DNA from: Williamsoniiplasma luminosum
GTDB lineage: Bacteria; Bacillota_I; Bacilli_A; Mycoplasmatales; Mycoplasmataceae
Length of the DNA stretch: 64,000 nucleotides
NCBI RefSeq assembly: GCF_002803985.1
Contig: NZ_CP024963.1
Span: 868,001-932,000, forward strand
Reading direction: 5' to 3'
The position numbers and the translations under genes are program-made. Below, one piece after another: positions 29,587 to 31,680 of the stretch (positions are counted from its first letter, which is position 1; each line of letters starts with the position of its first letter). The notes beneath the pieces are model-generated. The model did not search any database. It was not told the origin of the DNA and worked only from the letters and a program-made list of their open reading frames with translations.

Positions 29587-29877
29587 AGTAAAAATTCCTT
29601 CTTTCTTAGGTTTGAAACTATTGAATGCTTATTATTTCAAGTAGTTTAAAGTAAATCAAATCGCGCTCAACGTTAGATTTGTATGTATCCATTATAAATT
29701 AAAAAACAGGAAAATTTCAAAATTTTAGCAAGCGATAAAATTTTTTAATAGATTAAATAAAAATGGAAAATATGGTTACTTAATTTGTAACAATATTTAT
29801 CCATTTTTGGTTTAGTTAATGGGTCTTTTAATATTAAACATTTGCAATTAACATTTATTAAAATCAAATATTTACTA
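29587..29877 (-). promoter_or_regulatory. Promoter and leader of the RNase J-like gene
   Basis: On the minus strand TTGAAA (29715-29720) and TATAAT (29691-29696) stand 18 bases apart, giving a leader of about 100 bases. The rest (29721-29877) is AT-rich, with a diverged match to sequence beside the second RNA copy (AATATTAAACAT). No gene is seen. Confidence 0.6.
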
Positions 29878-29986
29878 ACAATTTTTGAATTCAATTTTAT
29901 TAATTATTTCATTTTTAAAAAAATTAGCCCTCTTTCGAGGGCACGGCCGCTGTTACAAACGTAATGGGCATAGATGAGGGAACACA
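29878..29986. repeat. Direct repeat copy 1 (3' half of a structured RNA)
   Basis: 109 bases that match 30142-30250 at all but one position (A at 29943, G at 30207). The repeat period is 264 bases. It covers a terminator-type hairpin and GC-rich bases in an otherwise very AT-rich region. Confidence 0.95.
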
Positions 29987-30040
29987 CTGAAGAGGATCGC
30001 GAATCTTTAGTGCTTTGCTAAATGACTTTTCAAAAAGCTT
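29918..30040 (-). ncRNA. Candidate small RNA, copy 1
   Basis: On the minus strand a promoter (TTGTTT at 30071-30076, 18-base spacer, TATATT at 30047-30052) precedes about 120 bases that end in a perfect rho-independent terminator: GCCCTC, GAAA loop, GAGGGC, then a T run (29918-29942). Inside, a hairpin GCACU..AGUGU / AAGA..UCUU carries a loop with the palindrome TCGCGA. Downstream come a single-stranded C-rich segment GTTCCCTCATC and a small stem TTAC-GTTT-GTAA. No open frame or RBS fits it. I do not recognise the RNA family. Confidence 0.7.
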
Positions 30041-30141
30041 CTCTTAAATATATTAGCAAAAAATTGCAAAAAACAATCTTTTTACATGAAAAAAATATTA
30101 AACATCTCAAATTAACATTTGTCAGAATAGACTGTTGATTC

Positions 30142-30250
30142 ACAATTTTTGAATTCAATTTTATTAATTATTTCATTTTTAAAAAAATTAGCCCTCTTTC
30201 GAGGGCGCGGCCGCTGTTACAAACGTAATGGGCATAGATGAGGGAACACA
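30142..30250. repeat. Direct repeat copy 2
   Basis: Second copy of the 109-base unit, one mismatch to 29878-29986. Similarity weakens abruptly upstream of the C-rich segment, where only paired bases are kept in complementarity. Confidence 0.95.
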
Positions 30251-30305
30251 TTAAAGAAGATCGCGATTCTTATTTAATGTTCTGCAAAAAGATTTTATTC
30301 AAATG
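30182..30305 (-). ncRNA. Candidate small RNA, copy 2
   Basis: Tandem paralogue of the RNA at 29918. The terminator (30191-30206) and the 3' half are nearly identical. The upstream hairpin has different arms, ACAUUAA against UUAAUGU and AGAA against UUCU, where copy 1 has other bases, yet pairing is kept around a loop containing ATCGCGAT. Its promoter is less clear (CATATC where copy 1 has TATATT), so it may also be made by read-through from deoA. Confidence 0.65.
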
Positions 30306-30333
30306 CTCCTCATAGATATGTTAGCAAAAAAAA

Positions 30334-30365
30334 TGCAAAAACACACCATTTTGCAATGGTGTGTG
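30334..30365 (-). terminator. Terminator after deoA
   Basis: ACACACCATT pairs with AATGGTGTGT around TTGC, followed by a T-rich stretch on the minus strand, eleven bases after the deoA stop. Confidence 0.9.
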
Positions 30366-30375
30366 TCACAATCTT

Positions 30376-31680
30376 TTATTCAATAATTTCTTTAATTGTT
30401 TTTTCTTCAAAAGGTTGAGAAACAATGTCAAATGAAGTTTTTGCCATTTCATTTCAACTTGCATTCGGTTCTTTGTTTGATAATAAAGTCATTACAACAT
30501 CACCTTTTTGCACTTTTTCATCAGATACTTTATTTAAGTAAATTCCAGCAGCATGATCCAAGTGATCTTCTTTAACTTTGCGGCCAGCTCCTAATTCGAT
30601 TGCTAAAAATCCTAATTGTTGCGCATCGATAAATTTCATATATCCATCTTTTTCAGCTTTAATTTCAATATGATTTTTTGTGGCAAAATTTTTGTCATAA
30701 TCTTCCATCACACTTCAGTCTCCACCTTGAGCTTTGATCATATCAACTAAGTAGTGAGCAGCTTCTCCAGTTTTTAATTTTTGCATCACTGATTTTTTAG
30801 CTTCTTCTAAGTTTTTAAAGATTCCAGCTTTAACCAAAGTGATTCCAACAGCTGTTGCTGAAATATCAATAATATCTTCAGGACCATTACCATGTAATGT
30901 TTCTCATGCTTCTTTGATTTCAAGAGCATTTCCAATCATTCTTCCTAACGGTTTGTCCATATCAGTGATCAAGGCAACGACTTGGCGATTGTGAGCTTTT
31001 CCAATATCAACCATTGCACGAGATAATTCAACAGCTGTTGGAATATCTTTCATGAATGCTCCAGATCCAACTTTCACATCCAGAACAATTGAATCAGCAT
31101 CAATGACTAATTTTTTAGACATGATTGATGCTGCGATTAATGGAATTGAATCAACCATTTCCACAACATCTCTTAAAGCATAAATTTTCTTATCAGCTGG
31201 GGCAATGTTGGCACTTGAACCGATAATACTTAATCCTGTTTTTTCAACAACTTGAATAAATTCTTTTTCAGTAAGTTCAGAATTTCATCCTGGGATTGAT
31301 TCTAATTTATCAATAGTTCCTCCAGTTTGTCCTAAAGCACGTCCAGATAATTTAGCAACTTTGATCCCATATGATGCAACTAATGGTGAAAATATAAATG
31401 AAATTTTATCTCCAATTCCTCCAGTTGAATGTTTGTCTGCTTTTCAACCTTTAATTGCACTTAAATCATAAGTTTTTCCCGAATCAACATAAACACTAGT
31501 TAAATCAGCAGTTTCTTGGGCGCTCATCCCTTTAAAGTAAATTGTTGCTAGAAATGCTGCCATTTGATAATCGGTCACTTCACCAGTTAAAAAAGCATTA
31601 ACAATTCATTTAATCTCTTCTTTTGAAAGCTCTTTACCTTCTTTTTTGTGGGTAATAATATTTTTGAATGAATAATTCAT
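30376..31680 (-). CDS. deoA: Pyrimidine-nucleoside (thymidine) phosphorylase
   Basis: Splits thymidine or uridine with phosphate into base and pentose-1-phosphate for salvage. The protein has 434 residues, normal length. Key segments: [18 protein letters not shown] (phosphate binding), [20 protein letters not shown] (family signature), and [13 protein letters not shown]-like [14 protein letters not shown]. The broad-specificity Firmicutes enzyme (Pdp) and DeoA cannot be told apart by eye. The start at 31680 has AAAGGAGA upstream. A single-gene unit with its own terminator. Confidence 0.95.

Follow-up and report, generated by a model that had tools for sequence, protein, structure and literature searches.

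What is encoded by the tandem repeat that separates deoA from rnjA in Williamsoniiplasma luminosum? We analyzed a window of 64,000 nucleotides (contig NZ_CP024963.1, positions 868,001 to 932,000), and all positions given below count from its first base unless another locus is named. The repeat has a period of 264 and lies on the minus strand, in the intergenic interval between the two genes. The interval and its borders are as follows.

30376-31680, minus strand: deoA, pyrimidine-nucleoside phosphorylase (Pfam Glycos_transf_3 and PYNP_C)
30341-30364, minus strand: intrinsic terminator of deoA (10-bp stem and T-run), the upstream border of the tandem pair
30142-30250, minus strand: 109-nt block, copy 1 (comparison of the copies)
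29878-29986, minus strand: 109-nt block, copy 2, with one base different (comparison of the copies)
29691-29720, minus strand: rnjA promoter TTGAAA-18-TATAAT (11/12 consensus matches), the downstream border
29586-27781, minus strand: rnjA, RNase J (Pfam)

Exactly as the first-pass annotation had described, the two 109-nt minus-strand blocks are 264 nt apart and differ at a single position (C/T). Upstream of the blocks the identity between the copies was approximately 70%, rising to approximately 85% around the motif TGC-TAAYAT, and the upstream segment that contains this motif was 77% identical over 43 nt. The 109-nt identity runs approximately 39 nt beyond the terminator T-run, into an AT-rich spacer, and the sequence flanking the identical block on either side was approximately 60-70% identical between the copies. 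Because the identity of the blocks includes this spacer, it points to recent duplication or gene conversion and not to conservation of a seed. Judged from the alignment, the near-identity of the blocks reads as the mark of a recent gene conversion or of a second duplication.

Each copy contains the parts of a putative transcription unit, with starts predicted from the -10 boxes and ends set by the terminators.

30318-30326, minus strand: putative extended -10 box of unit 1, TGC-TAACAT (TGN extension; hexamer 4/6, not decisive)
30184-30311, minus strand: unit 1 (U1), putative small RNA of approximately 128 nt
30191-30206, minus strand: U1 terminator hairpin, GCCCUC-GAAA-GAGGGC (terminator scan)
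30050-30058, minus strand: putative extended -10 box of unit 2, TGC-TAATAT (TGN extension; hexamer 4/6)
29920-30044, minus strand: unit 2 (U2), putative small RNA of approximately 125 nt
29927-29942, minus strand: U2 terminator hairpin (terminator scan)

The same GAAA-capped terminator closes each unit, as had been noticed before; it consists of GCCCTC-GAAA-GAGGGC followed by TAATTTTTTT and is oriented along the minus strand. Three terminator-like sites (U1, U2, and deoA) were detected in the region, compared with 0.3 expected in shuffled sequences, and the GCCCTC..GAGGGC hairpin was found nowhere else in the window beyond the two units. Each TGN-type extended -10 box lies approximately 120-130 bases 5' of the terminator of its own unit. 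In Mesoplasma florum, the promoter motif is as a rule TAWAAT with a TGN extension and without a -35 element (PMC7745072). The general motif TGNTANNNT has a density of 1.7 per kb on each strand of the window, so its mere presence before the units is weak evidence; that a -10-like box is kept at the matching place in both copies may count as better evidence. An intrinsic terminator belonging to deoA and a promoter belonging to rnjA enclose the units, which are therefore not parts of these genes. Of the features expected from independent sibling sRNA copies, the copies and their terminators are present and the promoters are predicted. The locus probably comprises two tandem minus-strand transcription units with predicted promoters and terminators. 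The GC-rich cores reported earlier were recovered, at 51-54% GC compared with 30% for the window, and the predicted transcripts have 41-44% GC against the same 30%; other 50-nt stretches in the window also reach 0.54-0.60 GC.

The predicted folds supplied the following elements.

30246-30280, minus strand: U1 stem-loop 1, two-part hairpin with the loop AUCGCGA
30210-30233, minus strand: U1 stem-loop 2, GCCC-A-UUAC-GUUU-GUAA..GGC
29982-30013, minus strand: U2 stem-loop 1, two-part hairpin with the loop UUCGCGAUCC

Full-length predictions gave both stem-loops and the terminator in U1 and U2 alike, in agreement with the earlier description of a two-part hairpin upstream in both copies with TCGCGA in its loop. 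U1 was more stable than its shuffles (z -2.3), and the fold of U2 was no better than its shuffles (z -0.9). Between the copies, stem-loop 1 carries two pair changes, with both bases altered in one of them (U-A to C-G) and a single base in the other (A-U to G-U), and a 3-nt deletion on its 5' side is absorbed by a register shift. These changes had been taken as covariation in support of the fold; they are within chance, since random substitutions of equal number and kind on U1 folded as well as U2 or better in 22-33% of cases and 240 of 500 pair shuffles were as good. On these counts, two copies cannot carry a claim of covariation. The palindrome TCGCGA occurred five times in the window compared with 2.7 expected, which is not a significant enrichment, and the palindromes in the two loops descend from a single ancestral copy. 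Dimer formation through the self-complementary loop, proposed from the palindrome alone, was not supported. We give very little credence to the view that the units are a species-specific sibling sRNA pair forming homodimers or heterodimers by a kissing loop, UCGCGA, and sharing one common targeting linker.

The C-rich linker between the first two stem-loops was the other element to which a function had been attached.

30235-30247, minus strand: U1 C-rich linker GUUCCCUCAUC, with predicted partial pairing to a 5' GAGGAG

The segment GTTCCCTCATC had been presented as unpaired; in the predicted full-length transcripts, part of it pairs with a 5' GAGG(AG)/GAG segment. The strict conservation of GUUCCCUCAUC appears to be a by-product of the recent conversion or duplication that homogenized the blocks, and it is a weak sign of function because the identity continues approximately 39 nt past the terminator. 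When compared with the 49 ribosome-site regions of the window, the linker performed no better than shuffled linkers (P 0.24). A genome-wide complement search returned five one-mismatch sites outside the units, and the near-matches examined lay within long open frames, none of them at a ribosome site or start codon. With the linker partly paired as well, these results do not support a strictly conserved seed that would be free to pair with GAGGG-type ribosome sites, and a single-stranded seed complementary to the ribosome sites of targets, as expected from sibling sRNAs, was not found. rnjA ranked first by linker duplex energy among 51 window genes; it was rejected as a linker target, as 14% of shuffled linkers did equally well and the GAGGGAA site is absent in the sister species.

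No third copy was found in the genome, where only AT-rich chance matches appeared. The covariance search that the first-pass annotation had called for, run with a model built from both units, turned up no convincing relative among 60 family genomes or, with laxer settings, in the three congeners; the matches in family and genus were weak (E 0.5 or worse). BLAST against 198 genomes of the order yielded only short AT-rich matches, a pattern scan of GTDB contigs was empty, a deoA-anchored GTDB scan returned only distant Firmicutes, and plasmids, phages, and viral contigs gave chance matches only. The Rfam search was without a match to the units, consistent with the earlier statement that they belong to no known RNA family. 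The copies are so far known from this genome only, and as the units were not found in the other genomes searched, there is no sign of selection. Two copies, one compensatory pair, and no homologue in the genomes searched are less than would be expected of a conserved structured RNA. In one congener (G085), deoA adjoins rnjA and the units are absent; in a sister genome (G153), the two genes are separated by a protein gene and by an unrelated block of higher GC. This block (L193:4335-4484, minus strand) is predicted to fold and has the deoA terminator on one side and a membrane-protein gene on the other; it gave no convincing alignment or covariance match with the units and is not in Rfam.

The main rival to the small-RNA reading is that an intergenic stretch containing a terminator (a spare one of deoA or a remnant, for example) was recently duplicated in tandem as a neutral event, and that any transcript is functionless. 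Such an origin would fit the occurrence of the units in one genome only, the near-identity that takes in approximately 39 nt of AT-rich spacer past the terminator, and the 5' halves, which are approximately 70% identical and whose fold is not significantly preserved. However, a promoter-like box and a hairpin are kept in the drifted half, and a GC-rich structured core persists in a genome of 30% GC; we consider this explanation unlikely, though far from negligible.

Downstream of the tandem pair we detected a further RNA element, which is separate from the tandem RNAs and was identified by pattern search and covariation.

29659-29679, minus strand: conserved rnjA leader hairpin

Of the 60 family genomes, 15 from four genera (3/4, 7/7, 1/1, and 4/4 of those searched) have the pattern of this hairpin, AAUCUAACG-N4/5-CGCGAUU, and each has it a single time, always 5' of rnjA. 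A reversed-pattern control gave no match, and there was no other match to the pattern among the 198 genomes of the order. The hairpin has 6 + 2 pairs with all cells paired, and its two outer pairs vary (U-A, A-U, or G-C in one, and C-G or U-A in the other). Its covariation score was reached in 0 of 500 shuffles and slid controls also failed, a result to be read with the caveat that related sequences can exceed shuffles. The hairpin matched no Rfam family and is possibly a control or stabilizing element of the RNase J mRNA. Judged by its distribution and pair changes, it appears better supported evolutionarily than the tandem units, and it bears on RNase J control in near-minimal bacteria, including Mesoplasma florum, which we take to be genome G032 of the same family. 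Elsewhere in the window, an Rfam match to the 2dG-I riboswitch (56939-56876, minus strand; 56.1 bits), a family described from M. florum, is followed by a terminator-like hairpin and lies upstream of a gene for a 486-aa multi-pass membrane protein resembling a purine permease.

The units might instead be tandem attenuators or terminators within a long rnjA leader, in which the upstream CCCUC and the terminator arm would compete for GAGGG and thereby control read-through into rnjA. Their position directly upstream of rnjA on the same strand suits this idea, as does the presence of CCCUC twice per unit, with either able to pair with GAGGG. In contrast, the near-consensus promoter and the leader hairpin of rnjA are both downstream of unit 2, the units are absent from relatives whose rnjA carries the same leader, and the local terminator hairpin dominates the predicted folds. 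Neither a place within the rnjA transcript nor retention in relatives, as expected of a cis-attenuator, was found, and we regard attenuation of rnjA as improbable.

Protein-coding readings were considered for both strands. On the minus strand, inspection of both units revealed no open frame kept in register between the copies, and leader peptides were rejected for this reason. The plus strand contains two frames antisense to the units.

29885-30010 and 30149-30277, plus strand: frames of 41-42 aa, with a hydrophobic N-terminus followed by an Arg-rich center

If these frames were small protein genes, their being open in both copies would be expected, as would the pattern of change in the drifted part, where a two-base change leaves the amino acid unaltered (Leu TTA/CTG), another change is conservative (K/R), and the indel measures 3 nt. 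However, they start with TTG without a ribosome site, have no Pfam match, and are opposed in direction to the terminators, and they cannot be counted as independent, given the 109-nt identity. The frames are probably due to chance, and small protein genes at this place are very unlikely. The U6-like small RNA MCS4 of Mycoplasma capricolum (RF02713) is a small stable RNA of a mollicute, similar to the putative products here in size and host group. It deserves almost no credence as the identity of the units, nor does any other known family below the Rfam thresholds: MCS4 resembles the units in neither sequence nor structure, was not matched in the region even at E values of up to 5, and was rejected after no match above the cut-off appeared in any of the 60 family genomes.

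With slightly better than even confidence, we explain the locus as two non-coding transcription units in tandem, restricted to this lineage, that encode two sibling sRNAs of approximately 125 nt. The tandem pair is a candidate set of small-RNA genes; the analysis establishes its duplication, terminators, position, uniqueness, and predicted folds, and we infer the promoters, the transcription, and the small-RNA nature of the products. A tandem duplication of approximately 264 bp would have given rise to the pair, the 5' halves would have drifted afterwards, and gene conversion or a second duplication would recently have homogenized the 3' halves. Each RNA would start at its extended -10 promoter, form three stem-loops, and end at its own intrinsic terminator. 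If functional, the RNAs would most likely act in trans, with the C/U-rich linker between stem-loops 1 and 2 pairing with purine-rich sites in mRNAs; such pairing and its targets are speculative and are proposed because other sibling sRNAs pair in this way. Mollicutes are not known to have Hfq, and the host is a wall-less, near-minimal bacterium. Few trans-acting RNAs have been characterized in mollicutes, and if expressed, the units would represent newborn sibling sRNAs of this group, seen shortly after they were duplicated and homogenized.

Two known groups of small RNAs resemble the units. LhrC1-5 of Listeria monocytogenes (RF00616) are multicopy sRNAs of 111-114 nt with a C-rich motif and intrinsic terminators (PMC6794450), and they share with the units the multiple copies, similar size, C-rich motif, intrinsic terminators, and Gram-positive lineage. 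LhrC appears to be the looser parallel, with three UCCC motifs compared with the one CCCUC linker per unit. The units did not reach the Rfam gathering cut-off for LhrC, and a weak match (E 0.26; 26 bits compared with a cut-off of 110) coincided with the deoA terminator and had the opposite orientation. NmsRA and NmsRB of Neisseria meningitidis are tandem, 70% identical, and composed of three stem-loops with a UC-rich stretch between stem-loops 1 and 2 (PMC5362039). They differ from the units in that their host is unrelated, in that they are expressed and have proven targets reached by anti-Shine-Dalgarno pairing whereas the units are putative small-RNA genes, and in that the linker of the units is partly paired in the predicted folds. 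A similar mode of action would hold for the units only if these are expressed and have targets. The likeness lies in similar tandem copies within one intergenic region, three stem-loops (predicted in the units), a C/U-rich stretch between stem-loops 1 and 2, and separate promoters (predicted here) and terminators; in their order of hairpin, C-rich linker, hairpin, and terminator, the units match the published description of NmsRA and NmsRB (PMC5362039).
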